From assembly GCA_902573295.1 (NCBI GenBank), contig CACGJB010000005.1:1-49918 (forward strand): a stretch of 49,918 nucleotides of DNA, written 5' to 3'. Numbering within the stretch: position 1 is the stretch's first letter; each line of letters opens with the position of its first letter. The notes below the pieces were generated by a model. That model did no database searches and had not been told where the DNA came from. It saw only the letters and a program-made list of their open reading frames with translations. Both the position numbers and the translations under genes were made by a program. Source of the stretch: an uncultured Pelagibacteraceae bacterium. Lineage in GTDB: Bacteria; Pseudomonadota; Alphaproteobacteria; Pelagibacterales; Pelagibacteraceae. Below are positions 8,932 through 43,848 of the stretch, in pieces.

Positions 8932-9574
8932 TAAAATCTCTATTCAATCTCTTTTGAACTTCTTTATTTATATCGGGATTAGTATTTTCTAATGAAATAA
9001 TTTTTTCATAGAATTCTCTAGATTTTTGTTTTTGGTTTTTTGAATAATAATACTCAGCCATTAAATATAAAGCGTGTGATTTCCATACGCTTTCTGAGTT
9101 TATTAATGGATTTAAAATATCTAACAATTCATTCTCATTATCATCAATTTCAGCTGCATAAAATAAAGCTTTTTTATAGATAACTAAATTTTTAATTTCT
9201 TTATCGAGGGATGTGTCATTAATAATTGTTTGAAACAACTCAAATACAACTTTTTTATCCAAAACTAAATCGTTATCGATAATAAAATATAATGATAATG
9301 GAGAATAAGTTGGATCTTTTTTACCTATAATTTCAATTAATTTATTTGCCGTTTCATCTTTTGATTTTTCTGAGTACTCTATGATTATTGAATTATAATT
9401 ATCTGAAGTTTCTTTTTTTTTATTTGTTAAGTATTTGTCAAAGCCATAAACGGCTGTCACAATAATTACTAAAATTATTATTCCTAATGTTATTTTATTT
9501 TTATTGTTTATAAAAAAATTTCTAATTTTTTCGTTTCTAGTATTTGCGTTTATAATTGATAATTCTTCATCCAT
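8924..9574 (-). CDS. Membrane-anchored TPR-like protein (YfgM/DUF2659-like)
   Basis: A 216-residue bitopic protein: a cytoplasmic N-terminus of about 27 residues, one helix (about 28-47, ITLGIIILVIIVTAVYGF), then a helical periplasmic region with tetratricopeptide-like repeats. A clear TPR is near the C-terminus: SHALYLMAEYYYSKNQKQKSREFYEKII is the region around 170-200. The size, topology and position directly before bamB match YfgM, an ancillary periplasmic chaperone partner of the Sec translocon. Sequence identity to YfgM is not obvious by eye, so the assignment rests on architecture and synteny. Confidence 0.7.
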   Translation of the reverse strand: MDEELSIINANTRNEKIRNFFINNKNKITLGIIILVIIVTAVYGFDKYLTNKKKETSDNYNSIIIEYSEKSKDETANKLIEIIGKKDPTYSPLSLYFIIDNDLVLDKKVVFELFQTIINDTSLDKEIKNLVIYKKALFYAAEIDDNENELLDILNPLINSESVWKSHALYLMAEYYYSKNQKQKSREFYEKIISLENTNPDINKEVQKRLNRDFSE

Positions 9575-30575: not shown

Positions 30576-32006
30576 ATGTTAGATAAAAGGAAATTTTACA
30601 TAAATGGGAAATGGGTTGACCCAATCGAAAAAAAAGATTTTGAGGTAATCAATCCTTGTAATGAAGATCCTTGTGCAATTATTTCTTTAGGTTCAAAAAA
30701 AGACACAGATAACGCAGTTAAAGCTGCAAAAACTGCATTTGAAACCTGGAAAGAAACTAGCAAAGAAGAAAGATTGGATTTGTTGGAAAAATTATTAGTA
30801 GTTTATAAAAAAAGATTTGGAGAAATGGCAGAAGCTATTTCGCTAGAAATGGGAGCTCCAATGGATTGGGCCACTGATGTTCAAACTGGATCAGGACAAG
30901 CACATTTAGAAGATTTTATTTTAAGATTGAAAGAATTTAATTTTGATGAACACTTTGATAAAAAATCAAACAACCATATTTGTTATGAACCAATTGGAGT
31001 ATGTGGATTAATTACTCCATGGAATTGGCCAATAAACCAAATAGCTCTTAAAGTGGTCCCAGCATTTGCAACTGGTTGTACGATGATACTTAAACCATCT
31101 GAAATAGCTCCTATCTCTGGAATGTTGTTTGCAGAAATGATTGATGAAGTTGGATTTCCTGATGGTGTATTTAATCTAGTAAATGGTGATGGCGCAGGTG
31201 TTGGAACACAAATATCAAGTCATCCTGATATTGATATGGTTTCATTTACAGGATCAACTCGTGCTGGAAGACTTATTTCAAAAAATGCAGCCGAAACAAT
31301 TAAAAGAGTTTGTTTAGAGCTTGGAGGTAAAGGTGGAAATATAGTTTTCGCAGATAGTTACAAAAATGCTGTTCGAGACGGCATAAGAAATGTTATGAGT
31401 AATTCTGGTCAATCTTGTGATGCACCAACAAGAATGTTGGTTGAAAAATCTATTTATAAAAGAGCAGTTGAGGAGGCAGTTGATGAAGCAAATAAAATAA
31501 ATGTAGATCAAGCCTCAAAGAAAGGTGATCATATAGGACCTGTAATATCAAAAACTCAATATGATAAGATCATCAATTTAATTGAAAGCGGAATTTCTGA
31601 AGGCGCAACGTTAGCAGCCGGGGGTCCAGAGTTACCTAATGGATTAAATAAAGGTTATTTTATAAAACCAACAATTTTTACAGATGTTACAAACGATATG
31701 AGAATTGCAAAAGAAGAAATCTTTGGTCCAGTTCTATCAATTATTCCATTTGAGACTGAAGACGAAGCGGTGAACATTGTGAACGATACTTCATATGGTT
31801 TGGGAAATTATTTACAAACAGAAGATAGAGAAAAAGCACATAGAGTTGCTAAAAAATTAAGATCTGGTTGTGTTTATATTAATGGTAATGCAGCTGATGC
31901 TGGAACCCCTTTTGGAGGTTACAGACAATCAGGAAATGGTAGAGAAGGTGGAGTTTGGGGTCTTGATGAGTATCTAGAAGTTAAAACTGTTACTGGGTGG
32001 AAATAA
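30576..32006 (+). CDS. Aldehyde dehydrogenase (NAD(P)+), paralogue 2
   Basis: A 476-residue aldehyde dehydrogenase with catalytic Cys281 (NSGQSCDAPTRM), general base Glu248 (LELGGKGGN), FTGSTRAG at 224-231 and ITPWNWPINQ at 146-155. It aligns with paralogue 1 at 16119 almost without gaps, both starting MLDK and YINGxWV, which points to an old duplication. It lies between the 3-hydroxyisobutyrate-dehydrogenase-like gene and the glycerophosphodiesterase gene. A betaine-aldehyde or aminoaldehyde substrate is plausible because the next 10 kb encode quaternary-amine catabolism. This is inference only. Confidence 0.92.
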   Translation: MLDKRKFYINGKWVDPIEKKDFEVINPCNEDPCAIISLGSKKDTDNAVKAAKTAFETWKETSKEERLDLLEKLLVVYKKRFGEMAEAISLEMGAPMDWATDVQTGSGQAHLEDFILRLKEFNFDEHFDKKSNNHICYEPIGVCGLITPWNWPINQIALKVVPAFATGCTMILKPSEIAPISGMLFAEMIDEVGFPDGVFNLVNGDGAGVGTQISSHPDIDMVSFTGSTRAGRLISKNAAETIKRVCLELGGKGGNIVFADSYKNAVRDGIRNVMSNSGQSCDAPTRMLVEKSIYKRAVEEAVDEANKINVDQASKKGDHIGPVISKTQYDKIINLIESGISEGATLAAGGPELPNGLNKGYFIKPTIFTDVTNDMRIAKEEIFGPVLSIIPFETEDEAVNIVNDTSYGLGNYLQTEDREKAHRVAKKLRSGCVYINGNAADAGTPFGGYRQSGNGREGGVWGLDEYLEVKTVTGWK

Positions 32007-32012
32007 AAATTT

Positions 32013-32651
32013 ATGCATCTAATCCATCGAGGGATTGTAAACAAAAAATATAAAGAAAACCTTTTAAATTCATTTAAACAATCATTTAAAAAAGGATTTG
32101 GAATAGAAACTGATATACACGCAACTAAAGATAATAAATTTGTCTGTTATCACGACTTTACTTTAACAAGGATTTTCAAAAAAAAACAAAGTGTTAAAAA
32201 CTTAAATTATCAAAAATTAAAAGAAATAAGTCTCAAACAAAATAAACCAATTCCCTTACTCCAAGATTTATTAAAGATATCAAAAAATAAATTCTATTTA
32301 TTTATTGAAATTAAGCCCAAATTCTCAACAGAATTGCTTAAAAAACTAATTAATGAAACATCTAAATATTCAAAATGTGTATTTATTTCGTTTAAACATC
32401 AAAATATTTTTAATCTTTTAAAACTAAATAAGAAAATAAAAGTGGGTTTATCTTTTTCACCACCAAGAACTGTGAAATCAATAGAAAAAAAATCAATAAA
32501 TAAAAATATAGATTGCTTAATTCTTGATAAATCATACATCAAAAACAAAAAAATTCAGAAACTAAAGATTAAAAAATATTTTTACACAATTAAAAATAAT
32601 TCTGAATTCAAAAAATATAAAAAAAATAATCTTATATTCGAAAACTTATAA
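32013..32651 (+). CDS. Glycerophosphodiester phosphodiesterase family protein
   Basis: A 212-residue TIM-barrel phosphodiesterase of the GDPD/UgpQ family. Catalytic pieces are present in order: HRG with His5, the ETD pair Glu32/Asp34, His47 in CYHDFTLTR, and a downstream EIKPK metal segment near 97. It has no signal peptide and so acts in the cytoplasm. It would release glycerol-3-phosphate and an alcohol such as choline or ethanolamine from deacylated phospholipids, which could supply choline to the betaine genes nearby. Somewhat short for the family (usually 230-250). It overlaps the opposing hydroxylase gene by six bases. Confidence 0.82.
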   Translation: MHLIHRGIVNKKYKENLLNSFKQSFKKGFGIETDIHATKDNKFVCYHDFTLTRIFKKKQSVKNLNYQKLKEISLKQNKPIPLLQDLLKISKNKFYLFIEIKPKFSTELLKKLINETSKYSKCVFISFKHQNIFNLLKLNKKIKVGLSFSPPRTVKSIEKKSINKNIDCLILDKSYIKNKKIQKLKIKKYFYTIKNNSEFKKYKKNNLIFENL

Positions 32652-33776
32652 TTGTTGCTTAAGATAATTTAATCTTCCAATTATTTCGTCTCTATCCATA
32701 TAATAACCTTGAAGGTGCCTATGTCCTGAGTTTGGATCAAATTCCGTTCTGCCGTGCAGTAGTCTTCTGTTATTAAATGAAAAAATATCACCTGCTTCTA
32801 ATCTAAAATTAATTTGAAATTTACTATCATGTAATAGATTACCAAATCGATGATGTGCTTTATAAACTGAGTCCATTACATCTGGGTGACAATCAAGTGC
32901 ATCTAGGGTTGCAATACTGTAACGAATATCATTATAATCTCCATCTTTTGTAAGTGAGATTGCTGTGCCGTGAACACTTCTAATTGCTTCTTGAGTATAA
33001 TCTTTATCTCTAAATTTTAGCGGAGTGTTGACCAAAATATCAAAAGTTTCTTTTTCATTTTTTCTTAAAAAGTCTGCAACTGCAAAAGCATCAACTGCGG
33101 AAGAGTCTCCTCCTTTTGCAGAATTTATTAAACAATGTAAAAATTGATATCCTGGAGGATTTTCAAACCAAGGTAAATCCATATGATTTCTCAATGCATG
33201 AGCTGTGTATGCTGAATTATTTGGTTTTGGAATGTTAATTACTTCAAAAGGTGTTTTAAAAAATGTTTCACGAGTATGACTTATTCGGTTTAATACATTT
33301 AATCCTGAATTTTTTTCAACAGGTGCATTCTTGACAATTGCTATCCCGGTGTGATGCAAAAGTTCCAACCATTTAATTAATCCCTCATCAGAACTTATAA
33401 TTTCGTCATGATCGATTTGAATAGACTCTAAATTTTTTTCAAGTGAACTGTCCCAAAGTTTATAAGGAGAAATATACTTATGTTTGTGTTTTAAAGTATA
33501 ACAATTTTCTCTTAGCCATTTAGGGTCATAATAACTTGTGTGATCTCCTTCGCTCCATTCAATCTCTAATTTTCCATCTGGACTTAGAGAATATTTTTTT
33601 GGGTTAATATCTTGTGAGACTTTCAAGATATTAAACATTCGATGTCTTGAGTCTTTGTCATGAGCAGTTGGGCAATTATCTCTCAACCAAAGATAATTGA
33701 ATTTGCTCTCTTCGCCATCACTCCAAATAACTTTTAAATAAGTAGAATTTTTTTCAAGTTTAGAAATTACACTCAC
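32646..33776 (-). CDS. Gamma-butyrobetaine hydroxylase-like 2-oxoglutarate dioxygenase (BBOX/TmpA group)
   Basis: A 376-residue Fe(II)/2-oxoglutarate oxygenase with an N-terminal DUF971-type domain (1-100, YLWLRDNCPTAHD near 28-40) and a TauD-type C-domain. Iron ligands are His198, Asp200 (RNHMDLPW) and His341 (RRLLHGRTEF). In carnitine synthesis this enzyme hydroxylates gamma-butyrobetaine to carnitine. The related TmpA hydroxylates 2-trimethylaminoethylphosphonate. The N-terminal zinc site is degenerate: of the three cysteines known in human BBOX1 only the first remains. It is divergent from proX (131 bases). The carnitine genes downstream favour butyrobetaine as substrate; the PhnZ/TmpB-like gene at 41735 keeps TmpA activity in play. 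Confidence 0.85.
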   Translation of the reverse strand: MSVISKLEKNSTYLKVIWSDGEESKFNYLWLRDNCPTAHDKDSRHRMFNILKVSQDINPKKYSLSPDGKLEIEWSEGDHTSYYDPKWLRENCYTLKHKHKYISPYKLWDSSLEKNLESIQIDHDEIISSDEGLIKWLELLHHTGIAIVKNAPVEKNSGLNVLNRISHTRETFFKTPFEVINIPKPNNSAYTAHALRNHMDLPWFENPPGYQFLHCLINSAKGGDSSAVDAFAVADFLRKNEKETFDILVNTPLKFRDKDYTQEAIRSVHGTAISLTKDGDYNDIRYSIATLDALDCHPDVMDSVYKAHHRFGNLLHDSKFQINFRLEAGDIFSFNNRRLLHGRTEFDPNSGHRHLQGYYMDRDEIIGRLNYLKQQL

Positions 33777-33907: not shown

Positions 33908-34924
33908 ATGAAGTTTTTAAAAAGATTAACTATCTCGATTTTCCTTTTATCATCTTTGGTTGTGTCTAACGCAAACGCAGGTGACTGTAAGGCTAGATTG
34001 GGAGATTTTGACTGGAGTAGTGCTAATATTCATACAGCTATTACTACTTTTATTCTTGAAAAAGGATACGGTTGTGAAGTTTCTGTAACTAAAGGAAGTA
34101 CTACACCTATCATGGCTGCACACTACGATAAGCAATTAGATGTCATCACTGAAGTTTGGTACGACAACATTATCGCAAACTACGAGCCACATGAACAAGC
34201 TGGGACAATCCAAAATATTGGAGTGAACACACCAGACTCACAACAAGCATTTTATGTTGATAAGACTACAGCTGATAAATACAACTTAAAATCTGTAGAA
34301 GATATGAAAGATCCAAAAATAGCTGCGCTATTTAAAGATCCTGAGGATCCATCTAAAGGTAGAATGACTAGCTGTATTTCTGGTTGGACTTGTTACACAG
34401 TTAATATGGTTAAACAAATAGAGTATGGTTTAGACAAATACTATACTAATTTTGATCCAGGTTCTGGTGGTGCGTTAGATGCTGCTATTGCTGGTGCTTT
34501 CGCTAAGAAAAAACCTATCTTTACTTACTACTGGGCACCAACTGGTTTAATGGGAAAAGTTGACCTTGTAAGATTAAGTGAACCTGCTTTTGATGCTGAT
34601 TGTTGGAATAAAATGTCTGCAGTTGTAGAAGATATTAAAGCTAACGGTCCTGACGCTTATAAAGCAAGTTGTGCATGTGAATATAGAGATATGGCTTTAA
34701 CAAAGTCTGTTTTAACTGATTGGGCAAAAGCTCACCCAGCTGAAACTGAGTTTTTAAAGAAATATACTATTCCAACAGCTACAGTTAACAAAATGTTAGC
34801 ATTCTACGAAGATGAGTCAGATGGTGATATGGAATTAACTGCTAAGCAGTTTTTAAAAACAGAGTCAATGTGGAAAAGCTGGGTTCCAGCTGATGTAGCT
34901 TCTAAAGTTACTGCTGCGTTGTAA
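33908..34924 (+). CDS. proX: Glycine betaine-type periplasmic binding protein, ProX-like
   Basis: A 338-residue solute-binding protein of the ProX/OpuAC family for quaternary amines. The signal peptide is cut after SNANA (residue 24), leaving GDCKARLGDFDWSSANIH. Tryptophans that could build the cation cage occur at DFDW, EVWYDN and YYWAPTG. Cysteines pair up in three places (DCKA, GCE, SCISGWTC, CACE), suggesting disulfides in the periplasm. A good AAGGAGA ribosome site precedes it, and a terminator follows before proW, so it is likely made in large amount. Because a gamma-butyrobetaine hydroxylase gene is divergent to it, carnitine or butyrobetaine may be ligands besides glycine betaine. Confidence 0.93.
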   Translation: MKFLKRLTISIFLLSSLVVSNANAGDCKARLGDFDWSSANIHTAITTFILEKGYGCEVSVTKGSTTPIMAAHYDKQLDVITEVWYDNIIANYEPHEQAGTIQNIGVNTPDSQQAFYVDKTTADKYNLKSVEDMKDPKIAALFKDPEDPSKGRMTSCISGWTCYTVNMVKQIEYGLDKYYTNFDPGSGGALDAAIAGAFAKKKPIFTYYWAPTGLMGKVDLVRLSEPAFDADCWNKMSAVVEDIKANGPDAYKASCACEYRDMALTKSVLTDWAKAHPAETEFLKKYTIPTATVNKMLAFYEDESDGDMELTAKQFLKTESMWKSWVPADVASKVTAAL

Positions 34925-34941
34925 TCTATAATTAAATTTAG

Positions 34942-34968
34942 AGAGAGCCCTTTTAAGAGGGCTCTTTT
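34942..34968 (+). terminator. Terminator/attenuator between proX and proW
   Basis: AGAGCCCT (34944-34951) pairs with AGGGCTCT (34958-34965) around a six-base loop, followed by TTTT. It lies 19 bases after the proX stop and 25 before the proW ATG. Partial read-through would lower permease message relative to binding protein, the same arrangement as in the pot operon. Confidence 0.88.
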
Positions 34969-34993
34969 GTTATAAGAATAAAAAATTCATCTA

Positions 34994-36019
34994 ATGGATA
35001 TAAAAAAAAATAAAAAACTATTTTTTAACATAGGTCTTATGGTCTTTTTTGTTTGGCTACTGATAATTAGTTATAGCTCTTCAAAAAGAAAGCCTGATAA
35101 CGTAGGTGAATTACTAAACGATTTTTCTTGGCTACAAAAATGGCCTAAATGGCTAGACCTTCCGTTAATGAAATGGATAAATATTGGTTTTAAAAAATTA
35201 AACGAAACTTATGGTTTTATTTTTGAGGCGATAAATAATTTTTTACTAGCTATGCTGATGGCTTTAAAAAATTTTTTAATATTAGCTCCATGGCCAGCTG
35301 TAGTATTAGGAGTTACAGTTATAGCTTATTTTGCAAGTGGAAGAAAAATAAGAACAACTGTATTTGTAGGTTTCTGCACTTTCTTTATTGGCTTTTTACA
35401 TCCAATATTTTGGCAAAAAGCAATAGAAACTACGGCTATAATGTTAATAAGTATTTTTCTTTGTTTGGTATTTGGAATGCCTGTAGGAATTTTAATGTCT
35501 AGAGCCGAAAAGATAAGAAACAAAATACTTCCAGTACTTGACTTAATGCAGACAATTCCTGCATTTGTATATTTAATTCCAGGAATAATGCTTTTTGGAT
35601 TAGGGGCCGTTCCTGCAATTATTGCTACATTTATTTATGCAGTCCCTCCATTGGTCAGACTAACAGATTTAGGAATTAGACTTGTAGATAAAGAGGTAAT
35701 TGAAGCAGCAGATGCTTTTGGTGCAAGTAAAAAACAAAAATTATGGGGTGTGCAAATGCCCTTGGCCCTTCCTAATATTATGCAAGGTATTAACCAATGT
35801 ACAATGATGGCTTTATCAATGGTGGTTATTGCATCCATGATTGGTACTAGAGGTTTAGGTGACGAAGTTCTGCTAGGTTTACAGCAGCTAAATGTTGGTA
35901 GAGCTGCAGAAGCAGGAATTGCGATAGTGCTTTTAGCTATCGTGCTTGATAGAATAACTCAATCTTACGGAGAAACTTTACAAGAAAGACGAGCTCCAGA
36001 AAAAAAGAAAGGTAAATAA
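34994..36019 (+). CDS. proW: Glycine betaine-type ABC transporter permease, ProW-like
   Basis: A 341-residue permease. After a first helix (about 10-28) and a soluble stretch with amphipathic segments, a cluster of six further helices starts near 80. The permease core carries the EAA-type loop VIEAADAFGASKKQKLWGVQMPLALP (about 234-260). The PGIMLFGLGAVPAIIATF segment is typical of the OpuAB/ProW family. The end overlaps the start of proV by one base (TAATG), so both subunits are made together. It imports quaternary ammonium osmolytes from the periplasmic ProX. Confidence 0.92.
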   Translation: MDIKKNKKLFFNIGLMVFFVWLLIISYSSSKRKPDNVGELLNDFSWLQKWPKWLDLPLMKWINIGFKKLNETYGFIFEAINNFLLAMLMALKNFLILAPWPAVVLGVTVIAYFASGRKIRTTVFVGFCTFFIGFLHPIFWQKAIETTAIMLISIFLCLVFGMPVGILMSRAEKIRNKILPVLDLMQTIPAFVYLIPGIMLFGLGAVPAIIATFIYAVPPLVRLTDLGIRLVDKEVIEAADAFGASKKQKLWGVQMPLALPNIMQGINQCTMMALSMVVIASMIGTRGLGDEVLLGLQQLNVGRAAEAGIAIVLLAIVLDRITQSYGETLQERRAPEKKKGK

Positions 36020-37044
36020 TGTCTAAAATAGAGATTAAAAATGTTTACAAAATTTTTGGAAACAATCCTCAATCTGTAATGCCGATGGTAAAAGATGGAG
36101 CAAACAAAGAAGAGGTTTTAGAGCAAACTGGACACACAGTTGGACTTGATAATGTTTCTTTAAATATTGAAGAAGGCGAAACGTTCGTATGTATGGGTCT
36201 CTCAGGCTCAGGTAAATCTACACTGATTAGACATCTCAACAGGTTAATTGACCCAACAGATGGAGAAATTTTAGTTGAGGGAACAAATGTGATGTCATTC
36301 AACAAAGAACAACTTATTGATTTTAGAAGACATAAAATGAGCATGGTGTTTCAAAGATTTGGTTTATTTCCTCACAAAACTGTTTTGCAAAATGTTGGTT
36401 ATGGTTTGGAAATGCAGGGTAAACCTGAAGATGAAAGAGACAGAACTGCTATGGAAAAAATTGAAGCTGTTGGGCTAAGCGGTTTTGAAAATCAATTTCC
36501 TAATCAATTATCAGGTGGTATGCAACAACGTGTAGGTTTAGCAAGAGCTTTGGCTACAGATAGTGATATAATGTTAATGGATGAAGCTTTTAGTGCATTA
36601 GATCCTTTAATTAGAAGTGATATGCAAAAACAATTACTTGATCTTCAATCAGAATTAAAAAAAACAATTGTATTTATTACTCATGATTTAGATGAATCAT
36701 TAAGGCTTGGAGATCATATTGGAATATTAAATGCTGGTAAATTAGTTCAAGTTGGAACTCCAGTAGAGATCATAATGAACCCAGCAGATGATTATGTAAA
36801 AGCTTTTGTTAAAGACGTGAATAGAGCAAAAGTAATTAAGGCTAAAGTTGTTATGAAAAATATAAATGAATCAAATGACATAGACAAAACTAGTTTAATT
36901 AAAGTTAACGAAGATCAATTTATAGAAGAATTTTTGCCTCAAATTGTTTGCTCAAATTCAAATTGTGAAGTTGTTGATAAAAGTGGAAATGTTAAAGGTT
37001 ATATATCTAATAAAGAATTGCAGACGTCATTAACAAAATCATAA
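36019..37044 (+). CDS. proV: Glycine betaine-type ABC transporter ATPase, ProV-like
   Basis: A 341-residue ATPase with the ProV/OpuAA N-terminal extension before the core (about 14-45). Walker A GLSGSGKST (60-68), Q-loop VFQRFGLFPH (110-119), signature LSGGMQQRVGLARA (164-177), Walker B IMLMDEAFSALDP and the H-loop ITHDLDE are present. The last 70 residues are shorter than a full CBS pair, so ionic-strength sensing of the OpuA type may be reduced or absent. It follows proW with a TAATG overlap and is three bases from the short-chain dehydrogenase gene. Confidence 0.93.
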   Translation: MSKIEIKNVYKIFGNNPQSVMPMVKDGANKEEVLEQTGHTVGLDNVSLNIEEGETFVCMGLSGSGKSTLIRHLNRLIDPTDGEILVEGTNVMSFNKEQLIDFRRHKMSMVFQRFGLFPHKTVLQNVGYGLEMQGKPEDERDRTAMEKIEAVGLSGFENQFPNQLSGGMQQRVGLARALATDSDIMLMDEAFSALDPLIRSDMQKQLLDLQSELKKTIVFITHDLDESLRLGDHIGILNAGKLVQVGTPVEIIMNPADDYVKAFVKDVNRAKVIKAKVVMKNINESNDIDKTSLIKVNEDQFIEEFLPQIVCSNSNCEVVDKSGNVKGYISNKELQTSLTKS

Positions 37045-37837: not shown

Positions 37838-38779
37838 TCATCTTAATTTTTTTTCATATTTCTTTCTGAGTTTTTGAATTTCTACTAAATATTGATCTCT
37901 TATATTTGAAATCTTAGCAACTGATTTTCCTTTTGCTTGATTTCTAGTTCCTGAAATAAGTCTTGAAGATAATTTCTTAGATAACTTTGGAGCTTTTAAT
38001 TTTGTCCAAGGTAATTTTAAAGCAGGTCCAAATTGTTCAAGCATATGTTTCATTCCTGCTTTTCCACCCGCAAGATGAAAAGTTAAAAATGTACCCATCA
38101 AAGACCATCTTAATCCTGGTCCATCTTCAATTGCTCTATCTAATTCTTCTGTGGTTGCATAGCCTTCATTTATAATATGAAGCCCTTCCCTCCATAAAGC
38201 CTCTTGCAATCTGTCAGATAAATATCCAGGTAATTCATTTTTAACCATGATCGGATTCATAGAAATTGATTTGTAAAATTTTCTAGCTAAATTTAAATTT
38301 TTACGTGTAGTTCTTTTACCTGGAACAATTTCAACAGCAGGTAATAAATAGACAGGATTAAATGGATGTCCAATTATCCCTCTCTCCGGATTTTTACATT
38401 TTGAATAAATTCTTGTAGGTAATAAACCTGATGAACTTGAAGAAATTATTGAATTTGATTTTGCATATTTTCCAATGGTACTCATCAATTTAGTTTTTAA
38501 AGAATAATTTTCCGTTGCACATTCTTGAATAAAATCTGCCTCTTTTAGTGTTTGTTCTATAGAGGTAAAAAAGTGAAAATTTTTTAAATTTAATTTTTTT
38601 TTGTTAAAAAGGTTTTTTACAAATGGCCAAGTTCTTTTGATTTCTAATATTAAATTTTTTTTTAAATTAATATCTTTATCGAACGCATAAACAATTTTAT
38701 TATGAGCTAAACAACGTATAACCCATCCTGCTCCAATTACTCCAGTTCCAATTATCGCAACTTTTTTAATTGATGACAT
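37838..38779 (-). CDS. L-carnitine 3-dehydrogenase-like enzyme
   Basis: A 313-residue NAD-dependent dehydrogenase of the 3-hydroxyacyl-CoA dehydrogenase fold. Rossmann motif IIGTGVIGAGW (9-19), catalytic pair His138 (GHPFNPVYLLPAVEIVPG) and Glu150, then SDRLQEALWREGLHIINEG (about 187-205), where carnitine dehydrogenases differ from acyl-CoA enzymes. It would oxidise L-carnitine to 3-dehydrocarnitine. Its start touches the end of the BKACE gene (last base shared, TAATG), the same dehydrogenase plus cleavage-enzyme pair as cdhA and cdhC in Pseudomonas. Confidence in the carnitine assignment comes from this pairing. Confidence 0.82.
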   Translation of the reverse strand: MSSIKKVAIIGTGVIGAGWVIRCLAHNKIVYAFDKDINLKKNLILEIKRTWPFVKNLFNKKKLNLKNFHFFTSIEQTLKEADFIQECATENYSLKTKLMSTIGKYAKSNSIISSSSSGLLPTRIYSKCKNPERGIIGHPFNPVYLLPAVEIVPGKRTTRKNLNLARKFYKSISMNPIMVKNELPGYLSDRLQEALWREGLHIINEGYATTEELDRAIEDGPGLRWSLMGTFLTFHLAGGKAGMKHMLEQFGPALKLPWTKLKAPKLSKKLSSRLISGTRNQAKGKSVAKISNIRDQYLVEIQKLRKKYEKKLR

Positions 38780-39666
38780 TACTTGTGTTTAACAAGTTTT
38801 AATTTTTCTCTAGTTTCAGATGGGGTCATTGGAGTATAGCCAAGTTCATCTATAATTCTTACAGCTTTTTCTACTAGTTGAGCATTAGTAGCTAATTTAC
38901 CTTTGGATAAATATAAATTATCCTCTAATCCAACTCTTGGGTTTCCTCCCATTAAAACAGTTTGAGCAACGAATGGCATTTCGTTTTTCGAAATTGCAAA
39001 CCCTGACCAAATACCTTCTTTTGGCATAATATCTTTCATAGCTTGCATAGCTAATGTTGTGGCAGGTGCTCCCCATGGAATTCCTAAACACATTTGAAAC
39101 ATTGGCGGATCACTTAACAAGCCCTCTTTATATAACTGTGCGCCAAACCACATATTTCCTAAATCAAAAGCTTCTATTTCAGGCTTAACTTTTATCTCTT
39201 TTAATTTCTTTGCTGCTTTTCTTAAATCATTTGGGGTATTAACGGTAATAACTGAGCTATCACCAAAATTTAAAGTACCCGCGTCTAAAGTACAAATTTC
39301 TGGGAGAAATTGTTCTGCATTTGCAATTCTTTCCATGACATTTGCCATATCGGTCATAGGGCCAAATTCTAAAGGGTTTTTACCTTGTCCAATATCAAGG
39401 TCACCTCCCATACCTGTTGTTAAGTTTAATATTACATCTGTGTCACTTGATCTAATTCTATCAATCACCTCTTTATATAATTCTAATCTTCTACTTGGAG
39501 TTCCATCTTCTTCCCTAACATGAATATGAGCAATAGCAGCTCCAGCTTTTGCAGCTTCTATTGATGCTGTAGCAATTTGTTCAGGTGTTTTAGGTAAATC
39601 TGGATGTTTGCTAGCAGTGTCACCTGATCCTGTTACTGCACATGATATAAAAACCTTATTGCTCAT
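38779..39666 (-). CDS. BKACE-family enzyme, likely 3-dehydrocarnitine:acetyl-CoA trimethylamine transferase (dehydrocarnitine cleavage)
   Basis: A 295-residue TIM-barrel zinc enzyme of the beta-keto acid cleavage family. Zinc ligands His47 and His49 are in AHIHVRE; GLEDNLYLSKGK near the C-terminus is the family signature. Such enzymes exchange the acetyl part of a beta-keto acid with acetyl-CoA. With dehydrocarnitine this yields betainyl-CoA and acetoacetate. It is directly followed by the carnitine dehydrogenase gene, while the matching thioesterase is 764 bases away on the other strand. Another 3-keto acid, such as 3-keto-5-aminohexanoate of lysine fermentation, is far less likely in this setting. 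Confidence 0.85.
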   Translation of the reverse strand: MSNKVFISCAVTGSGDTASKHPDLPKTPEQIATASIEAAKAGAAIAHIHVREEDGTPSRRLELYKEVIDRIRSSDTDVILNLTTGMGGDLDIGQGKNPLEFGPMTDMANVMERIANAEQFLPEICTLDAGTLNFGDSSVITVNTPNDLRKAAKKLKEIKVKPEIEAFDLGNMWFGAQLYKEGLLSDPPMFQMCLGIPWGAPATTLAMQAMKDIMPKEGIWSGFAISKNEMPFVAQTVLMGGNPRVGLEDNLYLSKGKLATNAQLVEKAVRIIDELGYTPMTPSETREKLKLVKHK

Positions 39667-39701: not shown

Positions 39702-40430
39702 ATGGAAATAACAGAATTACAAAGAGATCTAGCAGCCACTTTTAGATGGACGGCAAGACTAAACATGCACGAAGGTGTTGCTAATCATTTTAGCGCTTGT
39801 GTTCCCGGTTCAACAACTGATTTCTATGTAAATAAAGCTGGTATCCATTTTAGCCAAATAAAAGCTAGTGATTTGATTTTGGTTACCAAAGAAAACATTA
39901 ATGACATAAAAAATGAACCTGATTTAATTGACCCTACTGCAATAAGTATTCATGGAGCTATTCACCAAAAAGTTCCACATGCAAAATGTATTTTTCATTG
40001 TCATTCAAAATATGCAACAGCTTTATCTACTTTAAAAGATCCAATTATGAAACCTATAGATCAAAATACGATGATATTTTATAATAGAGTTTCAGTTTTT
40101 AATGAATTTGGAGGATTAGGATTTGAAGATGAGGCTATAAAGATGGCTAATGCTTTAGGAAATAAACAACATATGTTACTTGCTAATCATGGAATTATTA
40201 CAACAGGAGAGACCGTTGCCGAGGGTTTTAATTATTTATATTATTTTGAAAAAGCAGCAGAAACCTACCTTACTGCTTTATCAACTAATAAAGAATTAAA
40301 TATTGTAAGTGATGAAGTTGCGGAAAAAACAGCTCAAGAGACAGCAAATTACCCTATTGATTTAGCTAAGTTACATCTTGAGCAAATAAGATTAATTTTA
40401 GATAAAGAAGAACCGGAGTATAAAAATTAA
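39702..40430 (+). CDS. Class II aldolase/adducin domain protein
   Basis: A 242-residue protein of the class II aldolase fold. Metal histidines are in CIFHCHSKYATALS (about 101-106) and in ANHGIITTGETV (about 159), and the N-terminus has the NHFSACVPG block seen in this family. The usual active-site acid near GSxE-G is not obvious, so aldolase activity is unproven; many such proteins in catabolic operons remain uncharacterised. It is the first of five genes that run without gaps over 3 bases to the GMC flavoprotein, and it abuts the thioesterase gene directly. Confidence 0.82.
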   Translation: MEITELQRDLAATFRWTARLNMHEGVANHFSACVPGSTTDFYVNKAGIHFSQIKASDLILVTKENINDIKNEPDLIDPTAISIHGAIHQKVPHAKCIFHCHSKYATALSTLKDPIMKPIDQNTMIFYNRVSVFNEFGGLGFEDEAIKMANALGNKQHMLLANHGIITTGETVAEGFNYLYYFEKAAETYLTALSTNKELNIVSDEVAEKTAQETANYPIDLAKLHLEQIRLILDKEEPEYKN

Positions 40431-40898
40431 ATGTCAGTGCATATAGCTAATCAAGTAATTAAAAAAGAATGGACCGATTATAATAACCATATGAATATGG
40501 CTTATTATGTATTGGTTTTTGACCGATTATGGGAAATAATTTTAGAAAAATTTAAAATGGGTGAACAGTCTGCAAAAACAACTAAAATGAGTACAATGGT
40601 TGTGGAGACCCATACCACATATAATAATGAGGTCAAAGAAGGTGATGAAGTAGAGGTTAATCTTACATTTTTTGATCATGACAAAAAAAGATTACATTTT
40701 AAAATGGAAATGATTGAAAAATCATCACAAAAGCTATCTGCTACACTTGAAATGCTGTCTTTATACATAGATTTAAATAGAAGAAAAGTTGCAGAGTTTG
40801 AAAATGAAAAAGTAAAATTAATGGATGATTTTATAAATCTAAATAAATCAAATTTTAAAGATAATGATTTGGTAATTATTGGAAAGTTAAAAAAATAA
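40431..40898 (+). CDS. Hotdog-fold thioesterase, probable betainyl-CoA thioesterase
   Basis: A 155-residue single-domain hotdog protein of the 4-hydroxybenzoyl-CoA thioesterase type. The catalytic motif is EWTDYNNHMNMAYY with Asp16 as nucleophile or base. MSTMVVETHTTYNNEVKEGDEVEV forms the next strands. The same fold serves as CdhB in the carnitine pathway, releasing glycine betaine from betainyl-CoA, and CdhA- and CdhC-like genes lie immediately on the other side of the divergent promoter. The stop overlaps the start of the TauD-family gene (TAATG). Other acyl-CoA substrates cannot be excluded. Confidence 0.82.
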   Translation: MSVHIANQVIKKEWTDYNNHMNMAYYVLVFDRLWEIILEKFKMGEQSAKTTKMSTMVVETHTTYNNEVKEGDEVEVNLTFFDHDKKRLHFKMEMIEKSSQKLSATLEMLSLYIDLNRRKVAEFENEKVKLMDDFINLNKSNFKDNDLVIIGKLKK

Positions 40899-41731
40899 TG
40901 GAAATTAAACTGTTATCAGGAGCTTTAGGTGCAGAAATAAAAGGAATAGACTTAACTGATGTTTCTGATGAAAATTTTAAAAAAATTAATGATTTACTTT
41001 TAGAACATAAAGTAATTTTTTTTAGAGACCAACCAATTACTAAAGAACAACAAATAGCACTTGCTGAAAAATTTGGACCTTTAGAAACTCACGCTTACGT
41101 CAAAGGATTAGAAAATTACCCAGAAATTGTAAGAATTATCAAAGGTAAAGAAGAAAAAAACCAATGGGGCGAAAATTGGCACAGCGATGTAAGCTATAAT
41201 GCTAAACCAACCAAAGCTGTAATATTAAAGTCATTAAAAATTCCTCCAGTTGGCGGAGATACTTGTTTTTCTAACATGGAATTAGCATGGGAAACTTTAA
41301 ATCCTAAATTACAAGAAAAAATTAAGGATAAAAAAGCAATTCACAGCTCACTTGGTGCTGAATTTTTTATAGATAACTACAAATATATGGAGGGAAATGA
41401 GAAAAGAAATTATGACTCATACTCAAACGAGCATCCGATTGTCAGAACTCATCCTGAAACAGGTAAGAAAATTTTATTCGTTAACTGGACTTATACAAAA
41501 CAGATTATTGGTATAGACAAAAAAGAAAGTGATCAAATATTAAAAGAAATATTTGAACATCAAGCAAGGTTAGATCTTACCTGTAGATTTAGTTGGACAG
41601 AAAATGCTATCGCTATATGGGACAACAGAAGTGTTATACATTATGCCATAGCTGACTTTTTTCCAGGTAGAGGATTAGGTTACGAAAGAATAATGGATCG
41701 TATTGCTATTGAAGGGGATCATCCGCAATAA
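40898..41731 (+). CDS. TauD/TfdA-family 2-oxoglutarate dioxygenase
   Basis: A 277-residue Fe(II)/2-oxoglutarate oxygenase. Iron ligands are His95, Asp97 (NWHSDVSY) and His248 (SVIHYAIADF); the 2-oxoglutarate arginine is in GYERIMDRI (Arg264 or Arg268). The family oxidises taurine, alkyl sulfates, herbicides and other acids. Here the next gene, three bases on, is a PhnZ/TmpB-like HD oxygenase, so the likely job is to hydroxylate the carbon next to phosphorus of a phosphonate, handing the product to the HD enzyme. Taurine dioxygenase function is possible but there are no sulfite-handling genes in this operon. Confidence 0.85.
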   Translation: MEIKLLSGALGAEIKGIDLTDVSDENFKKINDLLLEHKVIFFRDQPITKEQQIALAEKFGPLETHAYVKGLENYPEIVRIIKGKEEKNQWGENWHSDVSYNAKPTKAVILKSLKIPPVGGDTCFSNMELAWETLNPKLQEKIKDKKAIHSSLGAEFFIDNYKYMEGNEKRNYDSYSNEHPIVRTHPETGKKILFVNWTYTKQIIGIDKKESDQILKEIFEHQARLDLTCRFSWTENAIAIWDNRSVIHYAIADFFPGRGLGYERIMDRIAIEGDHPQ

Positions 41732-41734
41732 TAA

Positions 41735-42271
41735 ATGAAAATAATTTATAAAATCATTTCAAATTTTATAAATAACAAATCATTATACATTGGTGAAAAT
41801 ATAACTATGTCAGAACACATGATTCAATCGGCAATGCTTGCTGAGAAAGCTAAATGTAATGACGATTTAATTTGTGCTTGTTTGCTTCACGACTATGGGC
41901 ATTTTCTTTTAGAGGATCCTGATGAACTAGTTATCAGTAAGCTAGATGGAGAGCATGAAAATATTGGGTATCAATACCTAAAAAAATTTTTTGGACAAAA
42001 GATAGTTGAACCAATTAAATTTCATGTTTTAGCAAAACGTTATCTGGCTAGGGACAAAAAATATTTTGATTTTTTATCAGATGCGTCAAAAATAAGCCTC
42101 AAATTACAAGGAGGAGTTTTAAACGATAAAGAGAGTAAAGAATTTGAAAATAAATCTTACTTTAAGCCATCAATTCTTGTTCGAAAATTTGATGAAGCTG
42201 CTAAAAGAACTGATATGAAAATGAAATCTATTCATGACTATGAAAAGTTGTTAAGTTCCAAACTTATATGA
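41735..42271 (+). CDS. HD-domain mixed-valent diiron oxygenase, PhnZ/TmpB-like
   Basis: A 178-residue HD-domain protein. Its residues match those I recall for PhnZ, which cleaves the C-P bond of 1-hydroxy-2-aminoethylphosphonate: a Tyr-x-x-Glu pair (Tyr18, Glu21 in YIGE), His28, His52-Asp53 in LLHDYGH, His74, His97 and Lys101 in FHVLAKRYL, and Asp153 in RKFDEAAK. The spacing of the residues follows PhnZ within one or two positions. The gene lies three bases after the TauD-family gene and overlaps the GMC gene by four. An aminoethyl or trimethylaminoethyl phosphonate would give phosphate plus glycine or betaine aldehyde. An ordinary HD phosphohydrolase is less likely given the Tyr/Glu and Lys. 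Confidence 0.8.
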   Translation: MKIIYKIISNFINNKSLYIGENITMSEHMIQSAMLAEKAKCNDDLICACLLHDYGHFLLEDPDELVISKLDGEHENIGYQYLKKFFGQKIVEPIKFHVLAKRYLARDKKYFDFLSDASKISLKLQGGVLNDKESKEFENKSYFKPSILVRKFDEAAKRTDMKMKSIHDYEKLLSSKLI

Positions 42272-43848
42272 ATTTCGATTATTTAATTATTGGCGCAGGA
42301 AGTGCAGGATGTGTGCTTGCAAATCGATTAACTGAAAATGGAAAAAACAATGTAGCAATATTTGAAGCAGGAAAACCAAGTGATATTTGGAAAGTTAACA
42401 TGCCACTTGCAATTTTATATACAATGCATGATCCAAAATATAATTACAAATATTATTCAGAACCAGAACCTCATCTTAATAACAGAAGATTATTTTGTCC
42501 AAGGGGAAAAATGATTGGAGGATGTTCTGCTCATAATGGAATGGTATTTGTGAGAGGAAATCCAAATGATTATCAAAGATGGGCATCTTTTGGATTAGAT
42601 GATTGGTCTTATGAAAAAGTTCTTCCCTATTTCAAAAAAATTGAAACATGGTCTGAAGGAGAAAATGAGTTTAGAGGAGGGAATGGAATATTGCCAGTAA
42701 ACCAATCTAAAAATAAAAATCCTTTATTTAAAGCATTTGTAGACTCAGCTGGCGAGGCTGGTTACAAAATAAACAATGACATGAATGGTAAAGAACAAGA
42801 AGGTTTTGGAATGTACGATGTTACTATTCATAAGGGAGAAAGAGCAAGTGTATCTAAGTATTATTTAAATCCTGCTAAAAAAAGAAAAAACCTAAAAGTA
42901 TTTACAGAAGCTTTTGTTGAGAGAATTATTTTTGATGGAAAAAAAGCAATTGGAATTGAAGTAAAAATAAAAAATAAAATCGAAAAGATTTATGCCAAGA
43001 AAGAAGTAATTTTAAGTGGAGGTGCAATTAATTCACCACAATTACTTATGCTTTCTGGAATTGGTCCAAGCCAACACTTAAAAGATAAAGGAATTGATAT
43101 TGTTCATAACTTAGAGGGTGTTGGAAAAAACTTACAAGATCATTTAGAAACTTATGTTCAGCAAGAATGCAAAACTAAAGATACTTTATACTCATACATT
43201 AATAAGTTAAATATGGTTAGAATTGGAATTCAATGGTTTTTGAGTAGAAGTGGTCCATGCTCTACCTCTTTTTTAGAAGCTGGCGGTTTTTGTAAATCGT
43301 CTCCAGAAAGGGAATATCCAAATATTCAATTTCATTTTTTTCCTGCTTTTGTAATTGACCACGGATTAGTTGATCCAGATAGGCATGGTTACCAGTTGCA
43401 TGCTAGTCCAAACCATCCAAAAAGCAGAGGTCATATAACTTTAAACAGCTCAAACCCTTATGATTATCCAAAAATTCAATTTAATTATCTAGAACATGAG
43501 GATGATTTAAAACAAACAATAGAATGTATTCATGTAGCTAGAAATATTTTAGGACAAGACTCTTTAAAACCTTTTGCTGGAAAAGAGATTGGGCCAGGTG
43601 AGCATGCTCAAACAAATGAAATTTTTGAAGAATATATTCGTTCAAAGGCTGAAACTGCTTATCACCCGTCTTGTACCCTAAAAATGGGATTAGATAATAT
43701 GGCAGTAGTTGATCAAAAACTTAAGGTTCATGGTGTAGAAAATTTAAGAGTAGTTGATGCTTCTGTAATGCCTGAGATTACAAGTGGAAACCTAAATGCT
43801 CCAACATTAATGATTGCTGAAAGAGCTTCCGAATTTATTTTAAATTAA
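42268..43848 (+). CDS. GMC-family flavoprotein, choline dehydrogenase-like
   Basis: A 526-residue FAD enzyme of the glucose-methanol-choline family. FAD site IIGAGSAGCVLANRL (7-21); second signature RGKMIGGCSAHNGM (about 81-94); GGAINSPQLLMLSGIGP (about 251-267); catalytic histidine in TAYHPSCTLKMG (about 466); C-terminal GNLNAPTLMIAERA (about 507-520). It resembles BetA-like alcohol dehydrogenases, which turn choline into betaine aldehyde and on to glycine betaine. It is the last gene of the aldolase-thioesterase-TauD-HD operon. If the HD enzyme makes betaine aldehyde, this protein or the aldehyde dehydrogenase at 30576 could finish the oxidation. Substrate unproven. Confidence 0.88.
   Translation: MNFDYLIIGAGSAGCVLANRLTENGKNNVAIFEAGKPSDIWKVNMPLAILYTMHDPKYNYKYYSEPEPHLNNRRLFCPRGKMIGGCSAHNGMVFVRGNPNDYQRWASFGLDDWSYEKVLPYFKKIETWSEGENEFRGGNGILPVNQSKNKNPLFKAFVDSAGEAGYKINNDMNGKEQEGFGMYDVTIHKGERASVSKYYLNPAKKRKNLKVFTEAFVERIIFDGKKAIGIEVKIKNKIEKIYAKKEVILSGGAINSPQLLMLSGIGPSQHLKDKGIDIVHNLEGVGKNLQDHLETYVQQECKTKDTLYSYINKLNMVRIGIQWFLSRSGPCSTSFLEAGGFCKSSPEREYPNIQFHFFPAFVIDHGLVDPDRHGYQLHASPNHPKSRGHITLNSSNPYDYPKIQFNYLEHEDDLKQTIECIHVARNILGQDSLKPFAGKEIGPGEHAQTNEIFEEYIRSKAETAYHPSCTLKMGLDNMAVVDQKLKVHGVENLRVVDASVMPEITSGNLNAPTLMIAERASEFILN

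Follow-up and report, generated by a model that had tools for sequence, protein, structure and literature searches.

In the TmpA/TmpB system of Leisingera caerulea, the HD-domain oxygenase TmpB, which carries a YxxE lid and a diiron metal set, yields phosphate and glycine betaine (PMC10574752, available text), and its partner TmpA is a dioxygenase of the GBBH type. The PhnY/PhnZ system acts on 2-aminoethylphosphonate (2-AEP) and pairs PhnZ with PhnY of the PhyH family, GmPhnY/PhnZ1 acts on methylphosphonate, and a further HD oxygenase of the same family (here termed D type) is found in carbon-phosphorus (C-P) lyase islands of SAR11 bacteria. Here we investigated a 49,918-nt stretch (the window; positions 1 to 49,918 of CACGJB010000005.1, contig C5 in our numbering, assembly GCA_902573295.1) from the 943-kb, 75% complete genome of an uncultured Pelagibacteraceae bacterium (SAR11), in which an HD-domain protein is encoded between a TauD-type dioxygenase and a GMC flavoprotein. 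The system seems to be a novel variation on PhnZ/TmpB, for which a substrate can be proposed as likely and hydroxylases only as candidates. In the reading we favor, to which we assign a probability of roughly 0.5, the HD protein cleaves an alpha-hydroxylated quaternary-ammonium phosphonate resembling 2-trimethylaminoethylphosphonate (TMAEP) to phosphate and glycine betaine, and the TauD-type enzyme is the likeliest hydroxylase in the window's genus.

The window HD shares the YxxE lid and the diiron set with TmpB, but belongs to a clade of its own, neighbors a 277-aa TauD/RdpA-type enzyme instead of a GBBH-type TmpA, and lies in a carnitine/betaine operon. With PhnY/PhnZ it has in common the catalytic residues and the position after a 2-oxoglutarate dioxygenase gene, whereas no PhyH match was found on the window contig and the identity to PhnZ is only 35%. 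PhnZ1 belongs to the same HD family, but the window HD scores 138.6 bits against the PhnZ1 model NF052439 (cut-off 300). The D-type HDs come from the same protein family and the same bacterial family, and differ in forming a separate clade and in lying within about 10 kb of PhnJ (C-P lyase) in five of six genomes.

Identity of the HD oxygenase

A previous sequence-only reading of the window had described a dioxygenase, an HD oxygenase and a choline-dehydrogenase-like flavoprotein encoded in this order, and the three open reading frames were confirmed on the forward strand at 40898–41731 (277 aa), 41735–42271 (178 aa) and 42268–43848 (526 aa), with 3 nt between the first two and a 4-nt overlap between the last two. 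The HD protein had four PDB matches, without exception to TmpB (6npa, E 4e-31) or PhnZ; the PhnZ entries, of which the best reached 6e-27, carry the deposited name "Predicted HD phosphohydrolase PhnZ". Over aligned fragments, the protein is 42.7% identical to TmpB and 34.6% to PhnZ, and it scores 163.7 bits against the Phn-HD model TIGR03276, below the curated cut-off of 214.6. Every residue listed in the sequence-only reading is present (Y18, E21, H28, H52, D53, H74, H97, K101 and D153), in addition to H56 and R150; the metal set of the PhnZ/TmpB branch (H28, H52, D53, H74, H97, D153) is complete and the lid is found as Y18-E21. At the 12 PhnZ positions compared, which we take to be metal, lid or phosphonate residues, the protein is identical to both PhnZ and TmpB.

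AlphaFold2 models of the HD protein and the TauD-type dioxygenase were too poor to use (predicted local distance difference test scores of 49.9 from a 10-sequence alignment and 49.3 from 8 sequences, respectively); the structure prediction suggested earlier for 41735–42271 gave no usable model. Measured against the window, dN/dS was 0.036–0.115 for the HD gene (six relatives) and 0.022–0.044 for the TauD gene (four relatives), although a few of the dS values approached saturation; both genes are under purifying selection. Judged by its sequence, 41735–42271 is a real and conserved gene for a PhnZ/TmpB-type HD oxygenase, predicted by analogy to hold a mixed-valent diiron center.

Phylogeny and distribution of the SAR11 clade

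Starting from 101 HD sequences (98 distinct ones from the collected loci, plus the window protein, TmpB and PhnZ), 72 and subsequently 61 were kept, mostly by dropping near-copies. In a careful tree of the 61 proteins, whose bootstrap had not fully settled, the SAR11 proteins formed a clade with 100/100 support and the TmpB proteins one with 100/99. The window HD falls outside the TmpB clade proper, and a single clade of SAR11 plus TmpB proteins was not rejected (approximately unbiased test, p 0.371). The phylogeny proposed in the sequence-only reading thus gives the protein a well-supported clade within the HD oxygenase family, though no settled sister. Within this clade, a 100/100 branch separates 21 sequences of types A and B from five of type C, the latter being unresolved among themselves; the HD of locus L068, where TauD is not adjacent, was placed with types A and B by the trees and counted there in the identity and residue comparisons. 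Met29 and Phe57 are common to TmpB and all 30 SAR11 sequences, compared with 0/37 and 2/37 of the other sequences, and position 25 is Met, Ile or Leu in 29/30 SAR11 sequences and Gln in 36/37 others.

The close relatives of the HD locus amounted to 40 loci, all from Pelagibacteraceae or Candidatus Pelagibacter, in a search that reaches close relatives only; a scan of viral contigs with two peptide patterns turned up no relative. Of 297 Pelagibacteraceae genomes, 37 matched Phn-HD strongly, with E values of at most 2.1e-47, and none of the 297 exceeded the curated TIGR03276 cut-off. A window-clade HD was assigned by score and neighborhood in 31 genomes, including G025 and G119, which are not in the tree, and a D-type HD in six (G035, G140, G166, G262, G286, G288; 199–202.5 bits). 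PhnJ was not found in any of the 20 tested window-clade genomes, several of which are incomplete (down to 55%), a negative that counts in favor of the function proposed below.

The D-type HD genes at 9520–10074 of L073 and 9411–9962 of L075 have C-P lyase genes and a phosphonate transporter in their vicinity; in L073, neighboring genes encode a phosphonate-binding protein, permeases, an ABC ATPase and a GntR regulator. A Phn-HD oxygenase gene also occurs within a C-P lyase operon of a Nostoc plasmid (L149, 2989–3549).

Substrate and product

In two related SAR11 loci with C-type HDs, the HD gene is found head-to-head with a TmpA gene, which scores 541.9 bits in L076 and 531.7 in L078 against a cut-off of 400. 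As positive controls, two TmpA-TmpB pairs from plasmids gave 578 and 596 bits for TmpA and 351.8 and 357.6 bits for TmpB. TmpA above the cut-off was present in 6/297 genomes, which belong to a single genus and without exception carry a window-clade HD (Fisher p 8e-7; this and the following Fisher values are guides only, as the genomes are related). The stop in the TmpA match of one of them, G042, coincides with the end of the 377-aa frame in L078. In four of the six TmpA genomes (G073, G092, G116 and G122), the HD lies beside a TauD piece or gene and GMC. The TauD gene of G073 is split into two frames (L139, 844–1670), perhaps through an error in the assembly; the HD and TmpA genes of that genome are intact. 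No TmpA above the cut-off was found in the 75% complete window genome or in the window's genus.

A TMAEP-like substrate is favored because of these TmpA neighbors, the quaternary-amine gene island around the HD gene, TmpB being the best solved match, and the TmpB-like residues at positions 25, 29 and 57. The quaternary-ammonium phosphonate considered in the sequence-only reading is thereby supported as the likeliest substrate. The betaine aldehyde proposed as its product was not borne out, since TmpB yields glycine betaine according to the text available of the source cited above. As TmpB makes the acid, GMC is probably not the next step after the HD and was set aside in that role; it is probably a parallel entry to betaine via choline oxidation.

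On this basis, the alpha-hydroxyl would probably be added by TmpA in the related SAR11 loci, and the TauD-type enzyme directly upstream would be the likeliest substitute for TmpA in the window's genus. The HD, acting as a mixed-valent diiron oxygenase, would then cut the C-P bond of the hydroxylated phosphonate, giving phosphate and glycine betaine directly; the most probable compound is (R)-1-hydroxy-2-(trimethylammonio)ethylphosphonate or one closely resembling it. Uptake may proceed through the betaine-type ABC transporter of the island, and the betaine formed would join a pool fed by carnitine (dehydrogenase, BKACE, thioesterase) and choline (GMC).

The TauD-type dioxygenase

The product of 40898–41731 was most similar to Fe(II)/2-oxoglutarate dioxygenases of the TauD/RdpA type (PF02668, 200 bits; RdpA 6d1o, 4e-57; TauD 1gqw, 1e-48), with 228.4 bits against the taurine dioxygenase model NF007104, below its cut-off of 313. 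Its iron ligands H95, D97 and H248 are intact, in line with the sequence-only reading, and the 2-oxoglutarate arginine R264 is also kept, as are H65 and R268, which count for the favored reading as well as for the separate-unit alternative discussed below. That reading had taken a TauD-type partner in place of PhyH-type PhnY as a hint of a new substrate. Membership of the TauD family is not in itself unusual, as TmpA-family proteins also belong to PF02668 (checked for two); the short TauD/RdpA type is still unlike TmpA.

A TauD gene directly precedes the HD gene in 37 of the 38 close-relative loci with upstream sequence (two of the 40, L034 and L042, end upstream of the HD and were excluded), and the array is therefore not due to chance. 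In the wider genome sample, a GMC gene was found in 61/297 genomes and TauD in 37/297; of the 61, 20 have both HD and TauD, nine HD without TauD, 16 TauD without HD, and 16 neither. In three of the nine (G092, G116, G268), TauD runs off the contig end, and counting these cut genes gives a Fisher p of 0.03 for the association of HD and TauD. When either TauD or TmpA is accepted as companion, 25/29 HD genomes have one, compared to 16/32 GMC genomes without a window-clade HD (p 0.003). As the partner of the HD, the TauD-type enzyme is hence adjacent in the window and its close relatives, with only partial coupling across SAR11. An obligate TauD-HD pair was rejected, as each occurs without the other in several SAR11 genomes. 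TauD is a plausible, though not secured, candidate alpha-hydroxylase.

The surrounding gene island

The TauD-HD-GMC trio is located after a class II aldolase-type and a thioesterase gene and opposite a BKACE and a carnitine dehydrogenase-like gene. GMC (42268–43848, forward) belongs to the choline dehydrogenase subfamily, with 746.9 bits to NF002550 (cut-off 605) and 683.9 to the betA model, below its 732.1. The hot-dog thioesterase (40431–40898, forward; PF13279) matches the C-terminal part of the NF005716 carnitine 3-dehydrogenase and is probably a betainyl-CoA thioesterase. On the reverse strand, 38779–39666 encodes a beta-keto acid cleavage enzyme (BKACE; PF05853) with a putative role in 3-dehydrocarnitine cleavage, and 37838–38779 a carnitine dehydrogenase-like protein (NF005471, 348 bits, under the cut-off of 414). 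Further up are the binding protein, permease and ATPase of a glycine betaine/choline-type ABC transporter (33908–37044, forward; PF04069, PF00528, PF00005), a GBBH/TmpA-family 2-oxoglutarate dioxygenase divergent from both (32646–33776, reverse; TmpA 6npb, 9e-51; GBBH, 7e-50; under both NCBIfam cut-offs), and an aldehyde dehydrogenase (30576–32006, forward; PF00171). From its gene content, the region is assigned to quaternary-amine catabolism, which supports the earlier placing of a PhnZ/TmpB-kind HD oxygenase in a betaine/carnitine gene island.

The class II aldolase/adducin-type gene (39702–40430, forward; PF00596, above the cut-off of NF005689) is facultative in the operon: it was not detected in loci L003–L042, and an HpcH/CitE-type lyase replaces or accompanies it in some relatives. 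In L080, which has no TauD, the gene before the thioesterase was considered as a dioxygenase candidate and turned out to be an HpcH/HpaI aldolase.

Evidence weighing against the proposed function

Several observations weigh against the function proposed above. Concerning the substrate, the catalytic residues are common to nearly all 72 aligned Phn-HD sequences, are therefore uninformative on substrate, and were rejected as proof of it. At 152.6 bits, the window HD reaches about half of the cut-off of the TmpB model NF049941 (300). A quick tree tied the SAR11 clade to TmpB weakly (76), and this sister relation was not recovered in the careful tree. Of 25 TmpB-diagnostic columns, SAR11 sequences share only 2–5 and other sequences 0–4; type A and B sequences have a mean identity of 37.5% to TmpB and 36.6% to other alphaproteobacterial HDs, and type C sequences are nearer the latter (40.0) than TmpB (36.5). 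HDs located next to above-cut-off TmpA in L106 and L120 keep Gln25 and lack the signature at 25 and 29; the 25/29/57 signature is therefore not needed for TmpA pairing and merely supporting, and it was dropped as a marker of trimethylammonium substrates.

Concerning the hydroxylase, TauD occurs without a window-clade HD in 16 genomes (four of which have a D-type HD), and the strict HD-by-TauD table among GMC genomes gives a Fisher p of 0.19. Of the six remaining HD genomes without TauD, G042 and G082 have TmpA; in G069, G123, G224 and G274, HD-GMC was found with neither TauD nor TmpA, the three of these HDs placed in the quick tree being near-identical. The exception among the close-relative loci, L040 (a short contig from another branch), likewise encodes thioesterase-HD-GMC without TauD. 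TauD pocket variants (NWTY or NSMY; Phe or Ala at 156) are found in operons that have HD as well as in operons that lack it. PhyH-family (PhnY-type) genes, whose products are possible alternative hydroxylases, are present elsewhere in 8 of 13 genomes tested, with two in the window genome; of the four HD genomes that lack TauD, three gave no such match at E 1e-8. Finally, the operon is a recombination mosaic in which the window's TauD and HD genes belong to separate haplotypes: 40601–41500 is 79–88% identical at the nucleotide level to L084/L144 and 73–77% to L014/L004, and 41801–42400 is 89–90% identical to L014/L004 and 72–82% to L084/L144. The TauD and HD alleles have thus been swapped independently of each other, which leaves TauD as the most likely, though unproven, partner.

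Alternative explanations

An alternative, which we consider doubtful, keeps the HD as a TmpB-like C-P oxygenase but assigns hydroxylation to the GBBH/TmpA-family protein of the window (32646–33776) or another enzyme, with TauD and GMC as a separate unit, for example converting trimethyltaurine to betaine aldehyde and sulfite, finished by GMC. Of the dioxygenase genes, the GBBH-like one accompanies the HD most consistently, being found in 30/31 HD genomes (in a few of them as a fragment at a contig end), among which are the four without TauD; it is, however, also present in 43/266 other genomes, and the FNN stretch of GBBH and TmpA, to which we ascribe a pocket role, reads YSI in the window protein. 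The TauD genes without a window-clade HD are mostly beside GMC where the locus was examined. Moreover, the window TauD, through H65 and R268, keeps the His and Arg aligned with H70 and R270 of E. coli TauD, presumably the taurine sulfonate site, and has Val and Gly where that enzyme has Y73 and N95. The adjacency of TauD and HD in the close relatives speaks against separate units, though the two genes are apart in G057 and G104, as well as in G130.

Two arrangements involving GBBH/TmpA-like genes were observed in other loci. A single frame at a contig start (L093, 3–1046) seems to join a GBBH/TmpA-like end to an HD oxygenase, a possible natural fusion in which Pfam saw HD only, and in L077 (10324–11975) a TmpA-like gene (333.9 bits, under the cut-off) is followed by a very divergent HD (36.9 bits to Phn-HD).

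The carnitine genes adjoining the HD would also suit a MIOX-like enzyme cleaving the C-C bond of a hydroxylated carnitine-type acid. This we regard as improbable: Lys101, His56 and Arg150 align with what we take to be the phosphonate contacts of PhnZ. Although MIOX shows that the fold is capable of C-C cleavage, the YxxE lid kept in the window HD is shared by PhnZ and TmpB and missing from MIOX (PMC8177086, available text). About as improbable is the label that marine surveys would apply, a 2-AEP PhnZ that forms glycine and phosphate with TauD standing in for PhnY; identical catalytic residues fit this label, but the window HD is closer to TmpB than to PhnZ, has Met25, Met29 and Phe57 where PhnZ has Gln, Ser and Tyr, sits in a quaternary-amine island, and has two related genes adjoining TmpA, not PhnY. 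An ordinary HD phosphohydrolase, for which speaks that Pfam assigns a broad HD domain only, is highly improbable given the exclusive PhnZ and TmpB matches in the PDB and the complete diiron set and YxxE motif.

Implications for marine phnZ surveys

Surface-ocean estimates of phnZ conflict: in the available texts, its rank among phosphonate catabolic genes varies from one of the rarest to the most abundant (PMC10574752, PMC9381506, PMC8316502), and a review calls consensus difficult (PMC10574752). In the accessible part of their study, Lockwood et al. used conserved residues to verify their sequences, attributed 45% of marine phnZ to Pelagibacterales and concluded that phnZ is the prevailing strategy for 2-AEP (PMC9381506). 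Murphy et al., in the text available, split phnZ into subclades; they detected the 2-AEP form at very few sites, and found the types for methylphosphonate and trimethyl-AEP to be about as abundant as phnJ (PMC8316502). The available text of a SAR11 study mentions carnitine metabolism in offshore genera (PMC12636525), and that of PMC6581173 refers to Pelagibacterales solely in connection with C-P lyase and the use of formate. In the limited collection of literature searched, partly available as excerpts, no earlier description of the SAR11 TauD-HD pair was found, nor any paper combining PhnZ, TauD and phosphonate, or joining SAR11, TmpA and phosphonate, or SAR11, carnitine and HD domain.

The SAR11 HD clade may, judging from the genomes analyzed here, offer a ready explanation of the conflicting phnZ counts. 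We tentatively suggest, at less than even odds, that a SAR11 TauD/RdpA-type dioxygenase has replaced TmpA before a new TmpB-like HD clade, giving a phosphonate-to-betaine route for carbon and nitrogen in a quaternary-amine operon, and that this clade makes up much of the Pelagibacterales "phnZ" surveyed as 2-AEP catabolism. As the residues are family-wide and the proteins form their own SAR11 clade in a betaine island, the substrate of SAR11 phnZ is a directly testable question. Should the proposed function hold, some of the marine "phnZ" assigned to Pelagibacterales would be something other than a 2-AEP PhnZ, and ocean gene surveys may have counted the SAR11 HD as an enzyme for a different compound. 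With 31 of the 37 strong matches belonging to this clade of the betaine island, trimethylated phosphonates would be a possible food of SAR11.

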